Shown here: positions 41,384-54,646 of the stretch, one piece after another
How the letters are laid out: every line of letters starts with the position of its first letter
How positions within the stretch are numbered: the first letter of the stretch is position 1
IMG/VR virus record: IMGVR_UViG_3300042312_000318
Coordinates: 1 to 54,646 of that record
Reading direction: 5' to 3' (one strand)
DNA: 54,646 bases
Origin: a virus
Notes under the pieces: generated by a model
The model's database searches: none
What the model saw: the letters and a program-made list of their open reading frames with translations, nothing else
What the model was told of the DNA's origin: nothing
Translations under genes and position numbers: made by a program

Positions 41384-41384
41384 G

Positions 41385-41705
41385 GCCAAGAACGGCGAAC
41401 CGCGCGACGTGCCGCTATCGCCCCGGGCGCAGGAGGCCCTGCGGGCGATTCCCCGGCGCCTTGACGGTCTCGTGGTCGGGTTGACGGGCGACGGCCTCAC
41501 GCAGGCCTGGGCGCGCGCGTGTGCCGCCGCCGGCGTCACTGGGCTGCGCCTGCACGACGTGAGGCATGAGGCGATCAGCCGGCTATTCGAGCGCGGCTGG
41601 AGCGTGTCCGAGGTCGCGGCAGTCAGCGGTCACCGCACATGGACCCAACTCCGGCGCTACACGCAACTGCGCGCCGAGTCGCTGGCGCGCAAGCTGGCCG
41701 CTTGA
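41385..41705 (+). pseudogene. Tyrosine recombinase (integrase) C-terminal remnant
   Basis: This frame begins right after the tail-tip stop, with AKNGEPRDVPLSPRAQEAL. It contains the beta-hairpin Lys, LHDVRHEAISRLFERGW (HxxR box), AVSGHRTW and the nucleophile in RRYTQLRAESLARKLA. The first catalytic Arg, the N-terminal domain and any start signal are missing, so it cannot recombine DNA alone. It is a 107-codon fragment of an integrase, from an ancestral phage or from host DNA captured at an attachment site; a tRNA lies 284 bases downstream. Confidence 0.8.
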
Positions 41706-41771
41706 CTGTCGGCGATGCCGCGGGCATATTGATCCGGCGCCGCCCCCTTCGGCGTGTCCCGTGCAGTACCG

Positions 41772-41800
41772 CGCCCCCGGCTCCCCACCGGGGGCGTTTT
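41772..41800 (+). terminator. Strong intrinsic terminator after the late genes
   Basis: CGCCCCCGG and CCGGGGGCG make a 9-bp GC stem with a 7-base loop followed by TTTT. It closes the plus-strand late transcription unit. Bases 41706-41771 hold no recognised feature. Confidence 0.85.
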
Positions 41801-41815
41801 CATTTGACCCCACGC

Positions 41816-41845
41816 TTGACGGCGATAGGATGCTGGCGGAATACT
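41816..41845 (+). promoter_or_regulatory. Candidate promoter before tRNA(CAT)
   Basis: TTGACG (41816-41821) and AATACT (41840-41845) are separated by 18 bases. It sits between the late terminator and the tRNA, so it could drive the tRNA independently. No gene is apparent in 41846-41988. Confidence 0.4.
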
Positions 41846-41988
41846 TGGCGCGCGGTAAGCCCCCAAGAATCGGCGAAGCGTCTGCAGCGCGAGGTCGGGA
41901 GATACGGGGCGCCTCGGTCGAAACGCGGGTCGCTCCCGCGCAGCCTAGCCCGACGCGGTCGCCCGTTGCGAAATACGGTCGAGAATTC

Positions 41989-42064
41989 AGCGAGTGTGGA
42001 GCACCGGCAGCTTGCCAGGCTCATAACCTGGAGGGACGGGGTTCGATTCCCTGCCTCGCTACCA
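41989..42064 (+). tRNA. tRNA with CAT anticodon (Met or Ile2)
   Basis: 76 bases with encoded CCA. The anticodon stem CCAGG/CCTGG closes the loop CTCATAA with CAT at 42022-42024. The T-arm is CGGGG/CCCTG with loop TTCGATT. Acceptor AGCGAGT/CCTCGCT pairs at six of seven positions. The D-arm GAGC/GCTT is shifted by one base, so the 8-10 linker has three bases, slightly irregular. The stem lacks the three G:C pairs of initiator tRNA. A Met elongator or lysidine-modified Ile tRNA are both possible. Confidence 0.8.
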
Positions 42065-42148
42065 AACGTGATGCGTCTGCGGCTTGAAACCGTTGACTGC
42101 CGGGGATGGGTAGGTGCCCGCCGGCGACGCACCTTGGCGCATTACTGA

Positions 42149-42173
42149 GCCCCGGGCACCCTCGGGGCGTTTT
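42149..42173 (+). terminator. Intrinsic terminator after the tRNA
   Basis: GCCCCG/CGGGGC stem (42149-42154 and 42163-42168) followed by GTTTT on the plus strand. It ends the tRNA transcript and adjoins the stop of the convergent rhomboid gene. Confidence 0.75.
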
Positions 42174-42664
42174 CATTTCGGCCGGCGCCACCATCGGATC
42201 ACCGCCCAGCCGGTCACCGCGCCGCCCAGGTGCGCAAATTGCGCGACGCCCGGCTGCAGGGTCGCGACGATCAGCAGCAGCGCGATCGCCGCGAAGACCA
42301 GCCGGCGCAGTGGCCGAACCGGATGCAACGTGCCGTAGGCGATCAGCAGGCCGAACGCGCCACCGGACGCGCCGACGACCGGGTGAGTCGAGAGCGCGGC
42401 ATGCGCGAGGCCCCCGCCAGCCACGCAGGCGAGGAAATACTGCGCGAGGCGACGCGCTCCGATCGCGCGCTCCAGCGGCGCGCCGAGGGCGGCAATCGTC
42501 AACAGGTTCGGCGCCAAGTGTGCGAGGTTGACGTGCAGGAGGGCGTAGGTCAGCAGTTGCCACGGCATAAAGCCGGAGCCGGTCTCGCCTAGCGGCCACA
42601 GCATCAGCCGCTCGGTCGGCAGCGCGCGCTGCGCGGTAAAGGCCACCGCGATGACGATCAGCAT
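42173..42664 (-). CDS. Rhomboid-family intramembrane serine protease
   Basis: 163 residues from ATG 42664. The protein is mostly hydrophobic, with about six membrane segments. Catalytic features are HLAPN (oxyanion Asn53), the serine motif GASGG (Ser100) and AHLGG (His145), with HVNLAHL at 44-50. This is the minimal six-helix rhomboid core. Rhomboids cleave membrane proteins inside the bilayer. It is the last gene of the minus arm, 26 bases after the helicase stop, with a weak ribosome-binding site. Rhomboids are uncommon in phage genomes. Confidence 0.85.
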   Translation of the reverse strand: MLIVIAVAFTAQRALPTERLMLWPLGETGSGFMPWQLLTYALLHVNLAHLAPNLLTIAALGAPLERAIGARRLAQYFLACVAGGGLAHAALSTHPVVGASGGAFGLLIAYGTLHPVRPLRRLVFAAIALLLIVATLQPGVAQFAHLGGAVTGWAVIRWWRRPK

Positions 42665-42690
42665 CGTCGTAGTGGCTCTGCCCGCGGCTC

Positions 42691-43809
42691 TCAAACGATC
42701 ACCGTGACGCGCTCGGATGCGCGCGTGATCCCGGTATACAGGTGCTTCTCGCGGTCTTCGCGGAACACCTGCGACTCGTCGAACAGGATCACGTCGTTCC
42801 ACTGCGAGCCCTGCGACTTATGCACGGTCAGCGCGTGGCCAAACGTGAACTGATCCGTCCCCCTGAGGTCGTCCCATTCCAGCTTCTTTTCTTCGCCGGT
42901 GAAAAACTCCTCGCGCACGACCACGTCGGTCTGCGGTATGGTTAGGTCGTCGATCGAATTTACTCGCATCTCAATGCGCGCGCCATTGGCCTTGACCTGC
43001 GTCGCCTCCCACAGCGAGCCATTCAGGACACCGTTTAGGCGGTTGTTCCGCAGACACACCAGACGCTCGCCCTTGACGGGGTGATGCGGCGCCGCGGTGC
43101 CAGCGTGGCCGCGCAGATGGCGAATCCGCGCGTTGTACGTCTGCCGCGTCATGTTCCGGCCGCACAGCAGTTGGTCGGCGCCCAGCACCAGCTCGCGCAT
43201 CTCGTCGCGGCCGATGCTGTCGCGCCGGATCACTCGGCTTTTGCCGTAGTCGCCGACTTGCAGTCCCCGCCCCTCGCGCACGTCCATGCTCATGCGGATG
43301 ATCGGATTCTCTGCCGCCTGCCGGTGCACCTCGGTCAGCATGACATCGGGGAAAGAGTTTATGAAATACCCTTCGCCCTTCACCGGCGGCAGCTGCGCAG
43401 GGTCGCCCAGCACCAGCACCCGCTTACGGAACGACAGCAGATCGGTAGCCAGATCCTCGCCGACCATCGACACCTCGTCGATGATAAGCAGGTCTGCGAA
43501 CGCGGCCGCGCTCTCGCGGTTCAGTACAAACTTCGTTTTCCTGGTCTCGGGGTCTTCGCGCGGCGTGTAGATCAGGCTGTGGATTGTTGACGCGCCCTCG
43601 CAACCCTTCGTGCGCAGAACCTGGGCGGCCTTTCCGGTGAAGCACGCATAGAGCACCGTACCCCTGACGCCGGCGGCGAGTTCCTTCGCGAGCGTTGTTT
43701 TGCCGGTCCCGGCATATCCGAACAGTCGGAACACCTGCGGCCCTTTCTTATTGGCCAGCCAGTCGCGCACGGCCTTGATTGCTTCCTCCTGTTGCGGGCT
43801 CCAAGTCAT
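42691..43809 (-). CDS. RecD/Dda-like superfamily 1 DNA helicase
   Basis: 372 residues, ATGA overlap upstream. Motifs are the Q-like WSPQQEEAI, Walker A FGYAGTGKTTL, Ia FTGKAAQVLR, II LLIIDEVSMV, III LVLGDPAQLPPV, V FGHALTVHKSQGSQW and VI LYTGITRASERV. A short SF1B helicase like T4 Dda, it probably unwinds DNA during phage replication or recombination. No primase or polymerase gene is present, so host enzymes are presumably used. Confidence 0.93.
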   Translation of the reverse strand: MTWSPQQEEAIKAVRDWLANKKGPQVFRLFGYAGTGKTTLAKELAAGVRGTVLYACFTGKAAQVLRTKGCEGASTIHSLIYTPREDPETRKTKFVLNRESAAAFADLLIIDEVSMVGEDLATDLLSFRKRVLVLGDPAQLPPVKGEGYFINSFPDVMLTEVHRQAAENPIIRMSMDVREGRGLQVGDYGKSRVIRRDSIGRDEMRELVLGADQLLCGRNMTRQTYNARIRHLRGHAGTAAPHHPVKGERLVCLRNNRLNGVLNGSLWEATQVKANGARIEMRVNSIDDLTIPQTDVVVREEFFTGEEKKLEWDDLRGTDQFTFGHALTVHKSQGSQWNDVILFDESQVFREDREKHLYTGITRASERVTVIV

Positions 43810-43976
43810 GGGCTTCGGTTCTCCGAGGCGACATGCGTCACGCCGACGAGCGAAACGCGATCAAGCATCGCCTCCCATAGCCCGCGCTCTGCGTCGTTCG
43901 GCGCCAGTCGCAAACCTTCACGTATCGCAGCTTCGGCGGCGTCGCAGGCCTTGATGTACTGATTCGTCGCGCTCAT
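43806..43976 (-). CDS. Small hypothetical protein, 56 aa
   Basis: The ATG overlaps the upstream stop and the stop overlaps the helicase ATG (both ATGA); GGGGGAGCG precedes the start. It is a helical protein (QYIKACDAAEAAIREGLRLA, ERGLWEAMLDRVSLVG) with no recognised domain. Its position suggests it accompanies the helicase. Confidence 0.72.
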   Translation of the reverse strand: MSATNQYIKACDAAEAAIREGLRLAPNDAERGLWEAMLDRVSLVGVTHVASENRSP

Positions 43977-45475
43977 CGCTCCCCCTTGCCGGCTAGATGC
44001 CGGGCGTCGTCCACGATCGCGGCCAGAGGCTCAGTCGCGCGCGTCTCGTCCAAGCCGAGAGCCTCCAGCATGCGTTCGCTGCGACCCGTGGTGAGTTGGC
44101 CAAACAGGTCGGAAACAAAACGCCAGCGATTGGCATTGGCTAGGGTCTGCGCATCCGCTGGCGGCGCTCCGGCGTAGAGCGGAACGTCATGACCTCGGTC
44201 TCCAGCACAGACGCCGGCGGCTGCTCCTGTCTTTCCAGAGTTGGCACGCAAAAAGTCAAATTCCCGGCGACTCACCCACGCCACCGCCTCCCCGCTGCTA
44301 GCGGTCAAGATCACCCCGCCGATACGCTCCTTAATCCCTTCGATCGCGGCCTCGGCGTCGTCAAGGTACAAGCGATACCAGCGGGAATTCCCTTGGCGCA
44401 CCTGGCTAATCGCTTTTGCGGCGGACAGCGCTAGATCGGATTGTTCCACCGCCCCGCTGCCGGCGGGAGCGGCCATGGCGAGCTTTTGTTCCATCGCCAT
44501 GAAGGTCACGACCAAAGATTTCAGCAGGTCTTCGGGGCCGCCCCCTTCGCAGACGCGAATCGCATGCGGGCTGCGGTCAAGCAAGCAACGCGCATTCGCT
44601 TCCCAGCCATTGTCATCCGCCCCGCCCTCGGCGGCCTTGGGCTGCGCAATGTCTGAGAATCGCCGATCCACTGAGCGCTGCCACTTCGGCTTTGAATAGC
44701 CCATGCGCATAGCCCAATGTTCGGGGATAGAGCGCTTTCCGGTTAGAACACCAGAGACGTAGGCAGGGCTGACCTTGTACTCTTTCGCAAGTTCGGCCTG
44801 AGAGCCAAGAATCTTTGCATACGCCTTAAGATCGGCGATGACATCGGCGTCCGAATACTCTCGATCATCCACCCCCTCCTTGGCGTTGGCCTCTGGCCGC
44901 TCGCTTGCGTCGATGCCGGCGTATCCTAGCTTCCTGAGCTCGGTCTCGGCTCGCTGCGCGCGACGCTTCCATTCAAGCGGGTCTTCGCGTGCTCCCGCGT
45001 AGGCGTCGCGCATGTCCGCACCGGCGGCTTCGGGCTTGGGCTGCGCATGCCGGAACTGCAAAGATTCGTCACGATTATTTTCGCGAAAGTATTGGTCGGT
45101 GCATTGTTGCCACTGGGTCCACGCACCATCGCCGCTACACCATCGCCGCACTTCGTATGTTGCATCAGCCCCCGCGGTTTCGGGCTGCGCGTGCCAAGCC
45201 CCGCACGAACATGGGACTCCGCCATTCGGGGCATCACAGGGTTCCGTCGCTCCGTTGCTGTCCGGGTTGTGGGCGACCGCCTCCGCCTTGGCCTCGGGCT
45301 GCGTTCCGTATTGGCATACTTCTTCCGTTTCGCAATCGCACTCGGGGTATCGGTCTCGGCCATCGCGCGGCGCACCGCAGGCCATCTTGCTGTCCAAATG
45401 CTGCGCCGGATTCTCCGGGCACGGATGTTGCAAAGACCTATCACCGCCCGGGCATGTGCAGTTGTTTGTGGTCAT
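43973..45475 (-). CDS. Mosaic phage protein, Ea22-like, with Cys-rich N-terminus and HTH
   Basis: 500 residues. The first 150 are Cys-rich (CTCPGGD, PECDCETEEVCQYG, VPCSCGAWH), a possible zinc-binding region. The middle has an HTH (GSQAELAKEYKVSPAYVSGV) and the C-terminus the phage motif GEAVAWVSRREFDFLRANSG with VPLYAGAPPA. Such modular, recombination-prone proteins are known in lambda-type early regions (Ea22-like). No function is established. It is coupled to the 54-residue gene upstream. Confidence 0.7.
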   Translation of the reverse strand: MTTNNCTCPGGDRSLQHPCPENPAQHLDSKMACGAPRDGRDRYPECDCETEEVCQYGTQPEAKAEAVAHNPDSNGATEPCDAPNGGVPCSCGAWHAQPETAGADATYEVRRWCSGDGAWTQWQQCTDQYFRENNRDESLQFRHAQPKPEAAGADMRDAYAGAREDPLEWKRRAQRAETELRKLGYAGIDASERPEANAKEGVDDREYSDADVIADLKAYAKILGSQAELAKEYKVSPAYVSGVLTGKRSIPEHWAMRMGYSKPKWQRSVDRRFSDIAQPKAAEGGADDNGWEANARCLLDRSPHAIRVCEGGGPEDLLKSLVVTFMAMEQKLAMAAPAGSGAVEQSDLALSAAKAISQVRQGNSRWYRLYLDDAEAAIEGIKERIGGVILTASSGEAVAWVSRREFDFLRANSGKTGAAAGVCAGDRGHDVPLYAGAPPADAQTLANANRWRFVSDLFGQLTTGRSERMLEALGLDETRATEPLAAIVDDARHLAGKGER

Positions 45476-45636
45476 TGTCTCTTACCCTTGCGTTTAACCG
45501 GCCGGCTAGCGGCGCTGTGCCATCGAGTGATGGCGGTGTTTGCGATTACAAACTGCACACGAAACCAAAAAAAATAACGAGCTGCTCTGCGCCAAGCCGC
45601 ACGCGCCATCTGTGGTTTCTTGCTTCGAAGTCTCAT
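45472..45636 (-). CDS. Small basic protein with hydrophobic segment
   Basis: 54 residues, joined by ATGA overlaps to both neighbours, which strongly supports it. A basic start (RLRSKKPQMARAAWRRAAR) precedes YFFWFRVQFVIANTAI (about 21-36) and a basic tail (SRPVKRKGKRQ). It may be a membrane-associated peptide. It fills the gap 45476-45632. Confidence 0.72.
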   Translation of the reverse strand: MRLRSKKPQMARAAWRRAARYFFWFRVQFVIANTAITRWHSAASRPVKRKGKRQ

Positions 45637-46766
45637 GAATCACCGCCTGTCGAATTGTCCTTGGCGTGCCGACCATCGACGTTACGCAGGATGTCCGCCC
45701 GACCGCGAAGGGAATCGGCGACCCCAGCGGCGAAGTTCCCGGCGCGCGTGTCTCGCTCGATCAGCTCAGAGGCGATGCGGTCTAAAAAGTCTGGAAGAGA
45801 TTCCGGGCCGGGCTGCGGCTCCGCGTTACTTAGCGGCGCATCGGCCGCAGTAAGTAACGGCTGCGGCGAGGCGCGCACAGGCTGCCCGTGGACAGCGCCC
45901 GGCGGCTTGGAGTCATGGCAGCGGGGGCACGTTGCCCGTCTGTCGTGATTCACAGGGCACAAGTTGAGCCAGACCTCCGGCGCATCCTGTGCAACAGCCG
46001 ATGAATCCTTGGCAGCTGCGGGCTGCGGCGCGGCGGCGAGCATAAGGAACGCCTGAAGTGCCTTCCATTCGTGGTTTCTGTGGCCGCTTTCGACGTAGGT
46101 GCGATACAGGCCGCTGTGCTTGCGCTTTTCGTACTCGACGCGCTCTTTGGCAGCCTCATAGCTGAGGTACGCATCGACAAACTGCCACCTTGCCCTGTAC
46201 TCGATGCGCTCAAATCGCTCGGGTAGTGCCCAGCCGCGGCCTGATCGTCGCTCCAGCCTTGCGGCCTTACGCTCCTCGACTTCCTCGCCGTCTTCAACCC
46301 ATATGAAACCATCGCCCTCGCCGTCTTGCACGCGATAGATGCGATCCTCGCGCTGCACGGTGTAGATCGGGTCCGCCGTGAAGTGATCATTCTGCATTCG
46401 ATCTGCGATCAAGCGCCGACCGATTTCGATCAGCCCCTCCGGCACCGCCACAGCCGCAGCAGCGCGGGCGTCGCCGTAGGTGCGGAGTGAGTCGCGGCTG
46501 TAAAGGTAAGTAATTTCGGGGTATTGATCGAGGCCATGCGGGTCTGCCCCTTGGGCAAACAAGTTGAAGTCTTCTTCCTCGCTATCATAGAACCCGAACG
46601 GTTCCGGCAGCCCCACCTCGCCACCCGGCGCGGGCTGCGCGGCGAGGGCGTCCTCGATCTCTCGCGCAAGCTCCAACGGTTCATTGCTGCCGTCGTCGTC
46701 GTATTTCGCGCCCTCGTCTTGCAGGTACGGGATCGCCTTTTTCAGCAGTTCGCGCAGGTCAGTCAT
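45633..46766 (-). CDS. Modular phage early protein, Ea22-like
   Basis: 377 residues, acidic at the N-terminus. The region PFGFYDSEEEDFNLF with ITYLYSRDSLRTYGDA resembles the phage module that ends in 'LYT' or 'PLYS'. A helical charged centre follows (EAAKERVEYEKRKHSGLYRT), then a Cys pair (LCPVNHDRRATCPRCHDS) as a candidate zinc finger. It looks like a recombination-built protein like its neighbour. No function assigned. Confidence 0.68.
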   Translation of the reverse strand: MTDLRELLKKAIPYLQDEGAKYDDDGSNEPLELAREIEDALAAQPAPGGEVGLPEPFGFYDSEEEDFNLFAQGADPHGLDQYPEITYLYSRDSLRTYGDARAAAAVAVPEGLIEIGRRLIADRMQNDHFTADPIYTVQREDRIYRVQDGEGDGFIWVEDGEEVEERKAARLERRSGRGWALPERFERIEYRARWQFVDAYLSYEAAKERVEYEKRKHSGLYRTYVESGHRNHEWKALQAFLMLAAAPQPAAAKDSSAVAQDAPEVWLNLCPVNHDRRATCPRCHDSKPPGAVHGQPVRASPQPLLTAADAPLSNAEPQPGPESLPDFLDRIASELIERDTRAGNFAAGVADSLRGRADILRNVDGRHAKDNSTGGDS

Positions 46767-47130
46767 GGTGAGGTTCCTTCGAAAGTTCCCTCGTCAATCG
46801 GTCAATCTCGTCCAACTTCCGCTGCCTCTCGGCCTTGGATGCCGCGTCCTTCCGTTCTTGCGCGCACTCTCGCGCTGCGGCGACAGGGTCATCTGCCGTC
46901 CAAACTTTCAGAGGGATGCGTGTCTCATGCTCGTAGGGACCACCGCTGCGGTGGTGCGTGTGCCGGATCGTGAAGAACCCAGCAGGCCACCTTTCGATGC
47001 TGTCGATGCAGTAGACGCCGCCGAAATGCTCTGCAATCGGTAGGATCGCTGCGCGCATTGCGTCATGTGCGCCTTCCGTGATCTCGACCATGCGCTCCCA
47101 GCGTTCGACTTTCTTGATGTGGTTAGCCAT
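46759..47130 (-). CDS. Hypothetical protein, 123 aa
   Basis: Soluble. The centre is GVYCIDSIERWPAGFFTIRH with several His residues, and the C-terminus is a charged helix (RKDAASKAERQRKLDEIDRL). It overlaps both neighbours by 8 bases, indicating one operon from the promoter at 48443. Function unknown. Confidence 0.7.
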   Translation of the reverse strand: MANHIKKVERWERMVEITEGAHDAMRAAILPIAEHFGGVYCIDSIERWPAGFFTIRHTHHRSGGPYEHETRIPLKVWTADDPVAAARECAQERKDAASKAERQRKLDEIDRLTRELSKEPHHD

Positions 47131-47530
47131 GGCTTTCGGCCTCCGTGCTGGTCGGGTTCAGGGCGGCGGTGAGTGCGGCTTGGGCATCGCCCTTGTGCAT
47201 TTGCCACTGCACACAAAAAGTGCCGTCTGGATTCTTGGACCTGGTCATGGTGCCGGAGTAGTAGACGGGGGCGTCTGGATTCCAGCCGTTTGCTATGCAA
47301 ATTCCGCGAGCACCACGCTCCACCCTCGCCTCATCCACCTGCGGGCGCAACTGGCGGGCAAAGTCTGTGAGTTCTTGGGCGGTGAATGCGTACAACGGCG
47401 CGCCGAGATTGATTTTTCCCTCGGGATAAAAGATGCCGACTTTTGCGGCCAACGCCTCTACGCTGGTCTGGGCTGTGGGCTCGTCGGCCTTGCTTTCAGC
47501 GGCGATCGTGGTGAGGCGTTCGATGTGCAT
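47123..47530 (-). CDS. Hypothetical protein, 135 aa
   Basis: GGAGAA precedes the ATG. The sequence is mixed helical and beta, with the motif APLYAFTAQELTDFARQLR, often seen as a shared module in phage early proteins. It follows a 145-base gap (47531-47675) that holds an 8-bp CCGGCGTT/AACGCCGG hairpin and no gene. Function unknown. Confidence 0.68.
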   Translation of the reverse strand: MHIERLTTIAAESKADEPTAQTSVEALAAKVGIFYPEGKINLGAPLYAFTAQELTDFARQLRPQVDEARVERGARGICIANGWNPDAPVYYSGTMTRSKNPDGTFCVQWQMHKGDAQAALTAALNPTSTEAESHG

Positions 47531-47675
47531 TGTGTTCTCCGGGATGGGGTGCCCCGGCGGGAAACGGGGCGGCGGGGATGTGTGGTGGACGCGGCCGGGC
47601 TACGTAGTTACCGGCTCCGGCGTTCGCGTGCGCGCAACGCCGGCTGCATTGGACGTTCGCACCGCGCCCGTGGGA

Positions 47676-48413
47676 TCAGTCGCGGCTGGCGATGCGGCGT
47701 TCGCGGCGGGCCTGCTGCGCGTCGAACGCCGCGCGAACCTGCGGATACAGCGGGTGCACCGGCAGCACCTGGATGCGGTCCTTCTCGAAATAGTCGGTCA
47801 TGCTGTCGCTTTCGTTCTTGACCTCAAAGCAGGTGCGCACCAGCGCTGAAAATCCGGTGTATTCGTGGCTGTAGATCGTGATCGTGTCGGCGGCCATTTC
47901 GGCCGGGACGTTCGTGTAGCCGCCCATCGAGTAATGCGCCTTCTGCAGCTTCTCGCCCTTGGCATCCTTGATGCCGTTCCAGAAGAAGACCGGCGCGGTC
48001 TTGATCACGACGCTGCGCTGCGCATCGGCCAGGTCGTGCTTTGCCTTCTCGCGGGCCAGCAGCTCGTCGGCTTCGCGCTTCGCGGCAGTTTTGCGGGCAA
48101 CTTGAATCAGCGCGTTGCAATGCACGCGATCGACGAGGCGGTAGCCGATACCGATGCCGCCGAAGCTGGACTGCTGCACGGTGGCGCGGCGGCCGTCGAA
48201 CAGGATCACTTCAACGTGGCAGTCGTTTGAGCGGATAACGCGGCGGGCGCCGCCGAGGGTCGTTTGCGCCGGCTCCGGGTTCGGCGTACCGTGCACTGCG
48301 ACGATCAAGCCGTCGCAGTCCTCGCCGAAGAGGCCTCCATGGAAGCGGACACGGCGGCCGACGGTGATAGCCTCGGCGGCCGCTTCGATCTCGGGCAGTT
48401 GGACGATGGTCAT
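47676..48413 (-). CDS. Hypothetical protein, first gene of the 48.4-kb operon
   Basis: 245 residues. The N-terminal half is beta-rich (GRRVRFHGGLFGEDCDGLIV, VILFDGRRATVQQSSFGG), followed by a charged helix (AKREADELLAREKAKHDLAD). The C-terminal part (SMGGYTNVPAEMAADTITIY) resembles a fold in phage single-strand-binding-like or hypothetical proteins. No firm family. It follows 30-60 bases after the operator-promoter. Confidence 0.65.
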   Translation of the reverse strand: MTIVQLPEIEAAAEAITVGRRVRFHGGLFGEDCDGLIVAVHGTPNPEPAQTTLGGARRVIRSNDCHVEVILFDGRRATVQQSSFGGIGIGYRLVDRVHCNALIQVARKTAAKREADELLAREKAKHDLADAQRSVVIKTAPVFFWNGIKDAKGEKLQKAHYSMGGYTNVPAEMAADTITIYSHEYTGFSALVRTCFEVKNESDSMTDYFEKDRIQVLPVHPLYPQVRAAFDAQQARRERRIASRD

Positions 48414-48440: not shown

Positions 48441-48471
48441 ATGCTACCGTCGGTGGCATGCCAATGTCAAC
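48441..48471 (-). promoter_or_regulatory. Promoter with operator for the leftward 48.4-kb operon
   Basis: Minus -35 TTGACA (48470-48465) and -10 TAGCAT or GTAGCA (48447-48441). The operator GCTACCGTCGGTGGC (48443-48457) differs at one position from the perfect palindrome at 24368. It drives the genes from 48413 down to the rhomboid and helicase, under probable repressor control. Confidence 0.78.
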
Positions 48472-48545: not shown

Positions 48546-48617
48546 CGCTCGGTAGCTCAATGGTGGAGTACCTGTCCACGGAACAGATGGTTGCAGGTTC
48601 GAGTCCTGCCCTAGCGA
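48546..48617 (+). tRNA. tRNA-Arg(ACG)-like, unusual C33
   Basis: 72 bases. The acceptor CGCTCGG/CCTAGCG pairs at six of seven positions, the D-arm is GCTC/GAGT, and the T-arm GCAGG-TTCGAGT-CCTGC is perfect. The anticodon stem CTGT/ACAG holds the loop CCACGGA, giving anticodon ACG at 48578-48580 with C instead of the almost universal U33, and one mismatched stem base. The CCA end is not encoded. It resembles bacterial tRNA-Arg(ACG), but the anticodon arm is degenerate. Confidence 0.68.
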
Positions 48618-48624
48618 TAGCGTC

Positions 48625-48700
48625 AGCCTGAATAGCTAAATGGCGAAGCGCCGGCCCAAAAAGCCGGAGGATGTAGGTTCGAGTCCTTCTCAGGTTGCCA
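48625..48700 (+). tRNA. tRNA-like gene, atypical anticodon loop (nominal AAA)
   Basis: 76 bases with encoded CCA. The acceptor AGCCTGA/TCAGGTT pairs fully (one G:U), and the T-arm GTAGG/CCTTC has the canonical TTCGAGT loop. The anticodon stem CCGGC/GCCGG is perfect but the loop is CCAAAAA: C33 and nominal anticodon AAA (48658-48660), which is essentially not used in bacteria. It may be a decayed tRNA or one with a non-translational role. Confidence 0.6.
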
Positions 48701-48708
48701 GCTTCACC

Positions 48709-48794
48709 GGATCGCGTTACCGGATGGGCGCCGGGCCTGACTGTAAATCAGGCGAGCATGCTCTCGCATCGTTCGACTCGATGGCGATCCACCA
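48709..48794 (+). tRNA. tRNA-Tyr(GTA)
   Basis: 86 bases, class II with a long variable arm (CGAG/CTCG). The acceptor GGATCGC/GCGATCC is perfect, the anticodon stem CCTGA/TCAGG encloses CTGTAAA (GTA, normal U33), the T-arm is CATCG-TTCGACT-CGATG, and CCA is encoded. The D-arm CCGG/CCGG is slightly shifted. The downstream 48795-48964 shows no convincing gene or further tRNA. Confidence 0.88.
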
Positions 48795-50951: not shown

Positions 50952-51189
50952 CGGGGCTCCCCTTCAATCGGCGGACGACGCGCATCCGGGCGGCAATGCC
51001 GCGCAGGTATTCCTCGGCGCCGGCACGGTGTTCCTCGGGCACCTTTTCGAGTTGCTCGCGCCATTTGGACATGTCGTAGCGGCGGTGGATATGCAGGCCC
51101 CAGCCGGTGGCGTCTTGGGGCTCTGGCCAAGGGTGGGCGTCAATAACGATCGCCGGCGCGGGCGCCTTCGCCTTGCGTGCGCGTGTCAT
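50929..51189 (-). CDS. Hypothetical basic protein, 86 aa
   Basis: ATG 51189 overlaps the adenine methyltransferase stop and has GGAGG upstream. The N-terminus is Lys/Ala-rich, followed by an aromatic segment (GLHIHRRYDMSKWREQLE) and a basic tail. Function unknown; probably nucleic-acid associated by composition. Confidence 0.66.
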   Translation of the reverse strand: MTRARKAKAPAPAIVIDAHPWPEPQDATGWGLHIHRRYDMSKWREQLEKVPEEHRAGAEEYLRGIAARMRVVRRLKGSPDGPPSTS

Positions 51190-51704
51190 CGCAGCAGACC
51201 CTCCGCTACCGGCACGGTCACCCATCCGCTCATGAACGATCCGCGAATGCCGGATGTCCGCAGCGCATCGGCATTCTCTGCGCCATAGGCGATCAGCACG
51301 CTGGGGGCGCCTCCGTTGGCCTCGGCTCGCCTGCCATCGACGTGATGAAAATGCAAGCGACCCTCAAGGAACAGCAGCGCGTCGGCTTTCAGCCAGACGT
51401 GCTCAAAAAACATCGCCGTCTCGGTGCGTGCGAAGATCAGGGCGATCGTGTTGCGATGCGCAGCGCAGCGTGCCAGCCACGCCGCAGCTTCTCGGCCGTA
51501 AGGCGGATTGCAGAAAACGCGGCCGTGCCAGTCCTTGACCAGGCCGTTGTCGAGCATGGTGTAGTGGTTCTTGGCCGTGTCCCATGGGCGATTAACCGGC
51601 GCGCAGGGATCAAGGTCGAACTCGCCAAGTGCTCGCAGTATTTCCGGTGGCGTCAGCCACTCGTCTTTGCCCATCCGGTGCGACTGGTGTCCGCCGATAC
51701 TCAC
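51186..51704 (-). CDS. DNA N6-adenine methyltransferase (phage Dam family)
   Basis: 172 residues. FDLDPCAPVNRPWDTAKNHY, FCNPPYGREAAAWLARC (catalytic NPPY at about 66-69) and LIFARTETAMFFEHVW match the phage N6-adenine MTase family, with the SAM site split between N- and C-terminal parts. Methylation may protect phage DNA from host restriction. It lies in the 53.3-kb operon downstream of a second adenine methyltransferase. Confidence 0.92.
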   Translation of the reverse strand: MSIGGHQSHRMGKDEWLTPPEILRALGEFDLDPCAPVNRPWDTAKNHYTMLDNGLVKDWHGRVFCNPPYGREAAAWLARCAAHRNTIALIFARTETAMFFEHVWLKADALLFLEGRLHFHHVDGRRAEANGGAPSVLIAYGAENADALRTSGIRGSFMSGWVTVPVAEGLLR

Positions 51705-53263
51705 GCCGGCATCCTCGCGACGTAGACGCAGACCTTGACCGACACGCCTGGAAATTTGATCGGATCAGACCAGTAGTGCGACTCGGCGCGGCCGATCTTG
51801 AACTTGCCCGCGAGGCTCGCCGGCAAGATCGCGCCGAGTCGTCCGCCCGGGGCCAAGAGGCCGGCCGCTGCGTAGGTGTGCGCCTCCGCGCGACCCTGCG
51901 AAAACGGCGGGTTCATCGCGATCACGTCGTACTTCGGCGCGGTCTTCGCCCACTCCAGGAAGTCGGCACGCTGAACGTCGGCGATGCCGCGCGCGGTCAG
52001 GATCTTGCAGTGCAGGGCGGACAGCTCGACGCAGGTCGTGCGGTCGGCGGGCAGCAGCTGCGCGATTGCGCCCTGGCCCGCTTCAGGCTCCAGGCACTTG
52101 TCGCTCGGGCCGATGTCCAGGCGCGACACCAGCTCGCGCGCCAAGTCCGCCGGCGTCGGGTAGTACTGGTGAGTCACCTCGTCGGGCAGCGTACCGACCA
52201 TGCGGATGTGCCGCAGGGCGTCGTCGGGGTCGTAGTCGTAGTCGTAGTCGCCGCGGCTGTTCTTGACGCCACCGATCGCCTGCAGCACGTCCTCGACCTG
52301 CGCGCGCAGGTGCTTGTCCTCGATCCATGGCACCTCTGCGGTGTTTGCCTTCTTGCTGACACACTTCCCGACATACTCGCGCACCTCGGCCGGCAGAGGG
52401 CGTTCGATGGTCGCGAAGTTGCGCGGTCTCGCCTTCGACGGCTCGCGGAACCGCGACGGGATCGCCAGCGGGTTAAGGTAGGCCAGCACGCGGTTCAGGC
52501 GCCACGCCATATCCGGGTGCACCTCGATGTGCGCATTGCCGTTGAGGTAGGCCCGGATGCGCAGCGTGCCGCCGTCCAGCGGCGCCCAGGTGCCGGTGCG
52601 CGGGATCGCGCACAGCAGGCTGTAGGTGCTGTCCCACGGCGGATCGGGCATGCCCATGAACCGGGCGATGACCATGCGCAGGTCGTGCATGTAGCCCTGG
52701 AAGCCATCGTAAGGGTAGCTGTGCATGCGCCCGCCTCTGAATGCGTATGTCAGAATGAACCTCTTACCGAATCCCTCGGGGCTGTTGGTCAGGTGCCCAG
52801 GTGACAGCCGTCGGAAAATGCCATCGACCTTTTCGGCGAAAAACCGCTCGCGACTCGCCAGCAGGTCGGCGATCGTCGGCTCGATCCATTCCGGCGAGAA
52901 GGGCGGCGTGGTCATCTTCTCAATGTCATCGTCCCAGCCGTCGCGACGCGCCTGCGGCATGATCTCGCGCACGCCGGTCAGGTCAAGGGCGCGGCGCCAA
53001 TAGTAGGCGTCGAGTGCTTTATAAGCCCCTTCGGACTTGAACAGCTCCTCGGTGGAAAGGCGGCCGCCGCGGCGGCCGCCGTCGCTGTTTGCTTTTAGGA
53101 AGTAGGGCACAGCGCCGCCCATCTCACCTTCCATCAGCGCGGCTAGGCTGCCGATCCGGTCGCGCATCTTGGCGTGCTCCATCAGCAACAATTCAATCGC
53201 GCCCTCCTTTGCGGGCAAGAAGAATTCGCCAATGTCGGAAGCGATGACGGCGGTATCTGTCAT
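51701..53263 (-). CDS. DUF4942 protein fused to adenine-specific methyltransferase
   Basis: 520 residues. Residues 1-330 resemble DUF4942 (FRGGRMHSYPYDGFQGYMHD, GNAHIEVHPDMAWRLNRVLA). The C-terminal 160 residues are an N6 methyltransferase: the FXGXG-type region CLEPEAGQGAIAQLLPA and the catalytic AMNPPFSQGRAEAH. First gene of the operon from the promoter at 53291-53320. Two adenine enzymes in tandem suggest different target sequences. Confidence 0.9.
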   Translation of the reverse strand: MTDTAVIASDIGEFFLPAKEGAIELLLMEHAKMRDRIGSLAALMEGEMGGAVPYFLKANSDGGRRGGRLSTEELFKSEGAYKALDAYYWRRALDLTGVREIMPQARRDGWDDDIEKMTTPPFSPEWIEPTIADLLASRERFFAEKVDGIFRRLSPGHLTNSPEGFGKRFILTYAFRGGRMHSYPYDGFQGYMHDLRMVIARFMGMPDPPWDSTYSLLCAIPRTGTWAPLDGGTLRIRAYLNGNAHIEVHPDMAWRLNRVLAYLNPLAIPSRFREPSKARPRNFATIERPLPAEVREYVGKCVSKKANTAEVPWIEDKHLRAQVEDVLQAIGGVKNSRGDYDYDYDPDDALRHIRMVGTLPDEVTHQYYPTPADLARELVSRLDIGPSDKCLEPEAGQGAIAQLLPADRTTCVELSALHCKILTARGIADVQRADFLEWAKTAPKYDVIAMNPPFSQGRAEAHTYAAAGLLAPGGRLGAILPASLAGKFKIGRAESHYWSDPIKFPGVSVKVCVYVARMPA

Positions 53264-53290
53264 GGTCTTGTTCTTGTTTGGGTTGCGGGA

Positions 53291-53320
53291 ATACTACCAT
53301 CGGTAGTATACGGAGCGCAA
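53291..53320 (-). promoter_or_regulatory. Promoter with extended operator for the methyltransferase operon
   Basis: Minus -35 TTGCGC (53320-53315) and -10 TAGTAT (53296-53291), spacer 18. The operator ATACTACCATCGGTAGTAT (53291-53309) is symmetric except at the central triplet and covers the -10 and spacer. It is the longest dyad of the set. Nothing else is recognisable in 53321-53410. Confidence 0.78.
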
Positions 53321-53410
53321 GCCCCCTAATGGCTGAAAACTGCGCGGATTGGACGGGCGGTTTTTACTTGCTGGTCGCCTTTGGGTGAGAAGGGCGGTAT
53401 CTCTCGGCCG

Positions 53411-54646
53411 TCACGCTGCGATCCGCCCCGCATTAACGACGGGATCAAGATTCGCCTCAGCGATCGCTCGCAGCGGCGGCGGGCTTACGCTGTTGCCCAC
53501 CATCTTTACCTGCGCTGCTTTCGGCAAACGGCGGCCGTCGGCGGTCCGGTCGATGATGTATTCGGGCGGGAACCCTTGGGCGCGGTACAGTTCGTGCGGT
53601 TCCAGCATGCGCAGGCCGATATCGACGATCACGTAGGGCACGCCGCGGATGTGCACCGTGACCAGGGCCAAACGGTCCTTGGTGGTGATGGTGGCGAGCG
53701 GTTCGCGCAGGTCGCCGTGCTGACCGCCTTCGCCGTAATAGCGCATCAGGAATGCCGCCACGCGCAGCGCGCCGGCCTCGGCTTCCGGGCTCAGCTGGCA
53801 CTCGACGACCGCATGGTGCGTGCCGCCGGCAAGGATTGAACCGACCGGATCGCGCGCGGCGGCGCCCGGGCTGTGCTGCTGCATCGGTTGCATGTGCGCC
53901 GCCACAAGCCGCTGCAGGCCGCCTTGTGCGCAGATGGTCGGCTGTGGGTTGCGTAGGTCGCTGCCGGCGCCGGTGTAGTTGCCGCCGTTGGCTTGTTCAA
54001 GGAATGCGGTGGTCACGCCGAAGCGCGTCGCGCCGGCTAACACGGTCGGCAGCGGGTCACGTGCATCAATGCCAACGACGTTCTGCGCCATCGCGCACAG
54101 GTGCGCGGAGACCAAGCCCATCGCATGCGCGGCGCCCGCCGGCCGCGCCGCACCGGCACCGCTGGTAATGGTGGGCAGGGGTTCGTCTGCGGGCACGCCG
54201 CCGCTCTCGCCGCGGAATTTGACCAAGTGCGGGGCGCATAAGGCGAACGACCCACCACCGGCGGGAATAGTGCCGATCGGCGCGGCGGCATCGTGTGCGC
54301 CGCTTCCTCGGCGCGCGGTCGCGCCCTGGCCTTCGCCGTAAGCGGTCTGCACCAGCACGGGCGCGCACACGGCCGCATCAGCCTTGGCGGTGATGGTCTG
54401 CAGAGGGCCGGAGGCGGGCCGCTCTAAGGTGTCGCCTATGCGGCCGCCGACGCCCACGATAAAGGGCTCGGCCGCGCCGAGCACGAACCGATGCACGCCG
54501 CGCGCGATTCGGCGCATGGTCTTCTCAGCCAGCGGCCGGGGCCGGTCGAAAATCGTGCGGCATGGGATCGACCAATCAATGCAGTCGGCGGCGGACACAG
54601 CCGGCAGCAGGCCAACTTGACGATTTGCGCAAGTTGCCGATTTTCG
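53411..54646 (-). CDS. DNA (cytosine-5-)methyltransferase, C-terminal part
   Basis: Continues the gene starting at 978. It contains SAADCIDWSIPCRTIFDR and PLAEKTMRRIARG, then a long repeat-rich recognition region with at least six units of the form DPLPTI-xAG spaced 30-65 residues apart. The end is MLEPHELYRAQGFPPEYIID (motif IX) and MVGNSVSPP (motif X, which binds SAM and the target base). The stop is at 53411. The repeats suggest several target-recognition elements. Confidence 0.93.
   Translation of the reverse strand, partial: RKSATCANRQVGLLPAVSAADCIDWSIPCRTIFDRPRPLAEKTMRRIARGVHRFVLGAAEPFIVGVGGRIGDTLERPASGPLQTITAKADAAVCAPVLVQTAYGEGQGATARRGSGAHDAAAPIGTIPAGGGSFALCAPHLVKFRGESGGVPADEPLPTITSGAGAARPAGAAHAMGLVSAHLCAMAQNVVGIDARDPLPTVLAGATRFGVTTAFLEQANGGNYTGAGSDLRNPQPTICAQGGLQRLVAAHMQPMQQHSPGAAARDPVGSILAGGTHHAVVECQLSPEAEAGALRVAAFLMRYYGEGGQHGDLREPLATITTKDRLALVTVHIRGVPYVIVDIGLRMLEPHELYRAQGFPPEYIIDRTADGRRLPKAAQVKMVGNSVSPPPLRAIAEANLDPVVNAGRIAA
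54518..54646. repeat. Terminal direct repeat (circular closure)
   Basis: Its first 126 bases match 1-126 exactly, and its last 99 bases match 130-228, so the sequence closes on itself. This shows a circular or circularly permuted genome in the assembly, not a biological terminal repeat necessarily. Confidence 0.85.

Follow-up and report, generated by a model that had tools for sequence, protein, structure and literature searches.

A compact phage rhomboid with an intact active site and a probable Lysobacteraceae-type origin

Introduction

Orphan inner-membrane proteins are established substrates of bacterial rhomboids, which cleave unstable transmembrane helices such as those of HybA, FdoH, and FdnH (PMC7232013). 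Rhomboids have also been annotated in phages: one is listed among the moron genes of the Stenotrophomonas phage-plasmid DLP5 (PMC5834331), one is annotated in the genome of Stenotrophomonas phage DLP3 (PMC7326821), and Stenotrophomonas phage Summit carries another. The phage and giant-virus models in BFVD likewise include rhomboids. The literature searched yielded no functional study of any phage rhomboid, and a 2025 review of the family mentions neither phages nor viruses. Here we describe a rhomboid gene in a 54.6-kb virus record with a 129–130 bp terminal repeat; the window, as used below, is this whole stretch of 54,646 nucleotides. Phage rhomboids are already annotated, and this one is a further example of a kind of gene that is uncommon but catalogued.

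Like the window's protein, the rhomboids of DLP5, DLP3, and Summit (Delepquintavirus) are phage-encoded, of similar size (175 aa), and have the same catalytic residues; however, they are only ~34% identical to it and adjoin PIG-L deacetylase and sugar genes rather than a helicase. A capture shared with Delepquintavirus is unsupported, because the placement of those sequences is a long-branch one. Escherichia coli GlpG shares its fold over the whole phage model, as well as the catalytic dyad and oxyanion residues, but identity is 25–27% and the phage protein lacks the N-terminal cytosolic domain. The nearest sequences are those of Lysobacteraceae (Luteimonas, Lysobacter; 40–46% identity, up to 53%), which have the same motifs and fall in the same clade; the phage rhomboid is shorter than these, with its N-terminus and the L4/TM5-start region trimmed, has a longer branch, and sits in a phage operon.

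Results

The window encodes a full head and tail set, a CI-like repressor, an O-like replication protein, and RecE/RecT-type recombination genes. A second contig of 6582 bp, which may be from the same strain, is identical over the stretch from the tail-tip gene to the rhomboid; this argues against a chimera and partly confirms the phage genome. Tandem repeats of ~100 bp occur at both ends (1–228 and 54518–54646, the left end consisting of two adjacent copies) and join the genome ends, yet leave exact closure ambiguous. Three consecutive DNA methyltransferase-family genes occupy 51186–54598 on the minus strand. Features around the rhomboid gene are as follows:

41384..41705, plus strand: orphan C-terminal tyrosine integrase fragment (Pfam PF00589, phrog_1)
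41989..42064, plus strand: tRNA-Met(CAT), predicted by ARAGORN
42149..42168, plus strand: terminator-like hairpin and T run from a scan (fold z only −0.95), behind tRNA-Met and past the rhomboid stop
42173..42664, minus strand: rhomboid intramembrane serine protease, 163 aa from ATG (Pfam, alignments, AlphaFold2 model, GlpG superposition)
42173..42694, minus strand: probable full rhomboid frame (173 aa from TTG), in which the start and the helicase stop share the bases TTGA
42691..43809, minus strand: Dda/RecD2-like SF1 helicase directly upstream of the rhomboid (phrog_325, E 3.6e-100; Pfam AAA_30, UvrD_C_2)
43973..48413, minus strand: five more co-directional genes of the block, mostly of unknown function, one HTH-like (ORF and codon-position analysis, PHROGs, Pfam)
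48441..48470, minus strand: sigma70-like promoter TTGACA-18-TAGCAT preceding the block (consensus scan, 10/12; a consensus match only)

The ORF at 42664..42173 on the minus strand encodes a real rhomboid. It matches Pfam PF01694 with an E-value of 1.1e-22 (81.3 bits against a curated cut-off of 22.6) and E. coli GlpG at ~1e-6, and its frame alone of the six is clearly phage-like in codon use. Scores against narrower models fall below their cut-offs, both for the GlpG equivalog TIGR04239 (37.3 bits; cut-off 250) and for Rhombosortase TIGR03902 (33.2 bits; equivalog cut-off 84), and no model of known anti-phage defence proteins in PADLOC-DB matches. The existing phage family PHROG 16931, which has no named function, is matched weakly (E 4.7e-8) over nearly the whole protein.

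Alignments place all three residues named in the initial annotation (Asn53, Ser100, and His145) at exactly that numbering. S100 lies in GASGG at the start of TM4 and H145 in AHLGG of TM6; the oxyanion residues H49 and N53 are present in the TM2 HxxxN motif, and H44 is also kept. These five residues (N53, S100, H145, H44, and H49) are invariant across 63 aligned rhomboids. In the same alignment, 17 positions are shared by at least 97% of relatives, and the phage protein retains 16 of these, while among variable positions it has the majority residue at just 49 of 155. Judged by this pattern, it is apparently a working, catalytically competent protease. Compared with bacterial relatives, ~13 residues are missing between TM4 and TM5, from the L4 loop and the start of TM5; the missing stretch is distant from the catalytic dyad in sequence. 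Well-conserved L4/TM5 positions (P, P, A, E128, and G132) are also lost. The loop before the catalytic serine is also short. The alignments thus present the phage rhomboid as a stripped-down version of its bacterial relatives, and the lost L4/TM5 positions, together with the long branch described below, could mean altered or reduced activity.

The start codon is more likely TTG 42694 than ATG 42664. This TTG is the sole other in-frame ATG, GTG, or TTG between ATG 42664 and GTG 42802; it extends the protein by 10 residues (MRAAGRATTT), two of them arginines on the cytosolic side, and makes TM1 complete. The profile match continues upstream of the ATG, and the score, from a profile built without the window sequence, rises from 139.3 to 141.3 bits, a difference of just 2 bits between the two starts.

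The AlphaFold2 model of the core, computed from the 63-row alignment, reached a pLDDT of 89.7 and a pTM of 0.85, as compared with a pLDDT of 58 from single-sequence AlphaFold. Its helices include residues 2–11 (TM1, from the ATG start), 100–113, and 142–159; TM5 is the least certain part (block pLDDT 65–80). The closest solved structures are those of GlpG, with Foldseek TM scores of 0.66–0.77 for E. coli GlpG and VIA superposition Z scores of 17–19 (best Z 19.3 over 155 residues, rmsd 2.8 Å). The six-helix core is accordingly predicted to be intact, as first described, with TM1 short when read from the ATG. iRhom and Derlin-1 also superpose on the model, with Z scores of 13–17.

In a search covering one genome per bacterial species, Luteimonas and Lysobacter rank first (40–46% identity). 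The phylogeny for host origin called for in the initial annotation gave a bacterial origin, with the phage rhomboid nested inside the Lysobacteraceae chromosomal rhomboids at support of 98/93. The nesting is also recovered in a tree without the extra close rows; because the rows added to the 98/93 tree were chosen for similarity, the exact sister is uncertain. The phage sequence has a very long branch (2.28). Together, this branch and the nesting make an old capture from a Lysobacteraceae-type host probable, and the donor was probably a Lysobacter- or Luteimonas-type bacterium. A chromosomal relative is present in 279 of 297 sampled Lysobacteraceae genomes. The best relative found for the tail-tip protein is also in Lysobacteraceae (51% over 608 aa, versus 42% in named phages); given this and the rhomboid nesting, Lysobacteraceae are a plausible host for the phage.

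Seven co-directional genes run along the minus strand (48413..42173) behind one promoter-like site, and the rhomboid closes the series. It adjoins the helicase, and its initial placement at the end of an early operon is borne out as probable. Three tRNAs (Arg, Phe, Tyr) are clustered on the plus strand at 48546–48794, just upstream of this leftward operon. Among 80 viral loci that encode a related helicase (36–72%), none carries a rhomboid in a flank of up to 6 kb, and the gene right after the helicase varies among the loci inspected. For this reason the rhomboid looks like cargo (a "moron"), and the slot behind the helicase looks like a cargo slot.

Between the rhomboid and the convergent tail-tip gene lie tRNA-Met, terminator-like hairpins, and the integrase fragment, which points to recombination in this interval. 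The fragment, which has no N-terminal part, continues from the tail-tip gene in a different frame. No other integrase match was detected in the phage genome, and the phage could be a derivative without int or a phage-plasmid. We also considered whether aberrant excision had lifted the integrase fragment, tRNA-Met, and rhomboid from a host together, an idea prompted by contig L012, in which an integrase abuts a rhomboid. This origin was rejected as unsupported: no tRNA was found at L012/L114, L134–L140, or the other rhomboid loci checked, and DNA of 41384–42170 gave just short chance-like stretches and diverged tRNAs against the 297 Lysobacteraceae genomes. The L012 rhomboid was itself rejected as a phage gene, as it belongs to the host flank of a Roseateles-type genome.

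The statement that rhomboids are rare in phages is a fair one. The query matches 8 of 50,697 phage records, and a strict motif recovers 35 stretches in 2.9 million viral contigs, most of them rhomboids; megablast of phages returned no match, and narrow-pattern viral scans returned few rhomboid relatives. The rhomboid tree must switch between viral and cellular labels about six times, so that several separate acquisitions by viruses are likely. Fifteen viral-contig rhomboids form a separate clade with 99% support (IMG/VR contigs L099, L101, L102, L104, L106, L110, L111, L112, L120, L124–L127, L130, and L132). In about 10 of these contigs, the locus also has a short conserved gene encoding ~140 aa (MMRDLAxSLRDVLxxTDDxYIExEPEDAFVDLAARLV), possibly forming a two-gene unit with the rhomboid, and two contigs of the clade have phage-type helicase or polymerase/primase genes. 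A six-member viral clade (L004, L006, L107, L116, L121, and L123) includes two members from genomes larger than 630 kb; in L107 and L123 (27% GC), the rhomboid is near a topoisomerase II gene.

Discussion

These data suggest, with reasonable probability, that the gene encodes a competent, loop-trimmed rhomboid captured long ago from a Lysobacteraceae-type bacterium and carried as phage cargo that changes the turnover of inner-membrane proteins. Its translation would be coupled to that of the helicase, in the final position of a leftward operon that is probably early, and the product would insert into the inner membrane of the infected cell. There, it would use a Ser100–His145 dyad with an Asn53/His49 oxyanion hole to cleave unstable single-pass transmembrane helices, either inside the helix or beside it; as the likeliest effect, one or a few proteins of the inner membrane would be turned over differently during infection or carriage.

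Rhomboids work in the inner membrane, where they cleave transmembrane helices, and beta-barrel receptors of the outer membrane are inaccessible to such an enzyme. A porin or other outer-membrane receptor is therefore an unlikely target. The initial annotation had proposed cleavage of a host receptor or an envelope defence, and this part of its interpretation is unsupported; the intact active site, the helicase neighbour, the probable early operon, and the bacterial origin all stand, while the substrate does not.

Other roles for the gene must be weighed against cargo that shifts protein turnover. The protease could instead act in a carrier cell as a lysogenic-conversion or superinfection-exclusion factor, removing an inner-membrane protein on which DNA entry by competing phages depends. 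The CI-like repressor and O-like replication gene make a carried state plausible and favour such a role, as does the moron listing of the DLP5 rhomboid; however, the window's gene lies in the helicase block and not beside the repressor, and a full integrase was not detected, leaving exclusion a rather unlikely explanation. A little less likely still is a change of specificity behind the trimmed loop and the fast divergence, by which a housekeeping membrane protease of the host became a dedicated counter-defence or exclusion protease of the intramembrane class, directed at a particular protein of the host inner membrane (either a defence sensor or a factor for DNA entry).

A neutral or decaying passenger that recombination brought into the region separating the tail module from the helicase operon would account for the adjoining orphan integrase fragment and tRNA, the long branch, and the absence of rhomboids from the flanks searched beside helicase relatives. 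Against this, conserved positions are preferentially kept and the TTGA overlap with the helicase is neat. In neutral simulations, in which two bacterial relatives were mutated to 49% identity by substitutions only, an open frame and the three catalytic residues survived in just 7–8 of 2000 runs (0.35–0.4%); such survival at ~50% identity is rare under neutrality, so retention of the rhomboid is unlikely without selection, and the passenger explanation is improbable. The superposition on iRhom and Derlin-1 could likewise be read as that of a non-proteolytic rhomboid-fold protein acting as a membrane chaperone or dislocase, but the Ser, His, and Asn residues and the GASG motif are all intact and the closest sequences are bacterial rhomboids with a full active site, making a derlin/iRhom-like protein very improbable.

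A benefit shared among phage rhomboids is possible, because the tree suggests several separate entries into phages. The phage described here carries a compact rhomboid with an intact site, and members of its apparent donor family almost all have a counterpart on the chromosome; the finding therefore raises the question of what a second, altered copy does.
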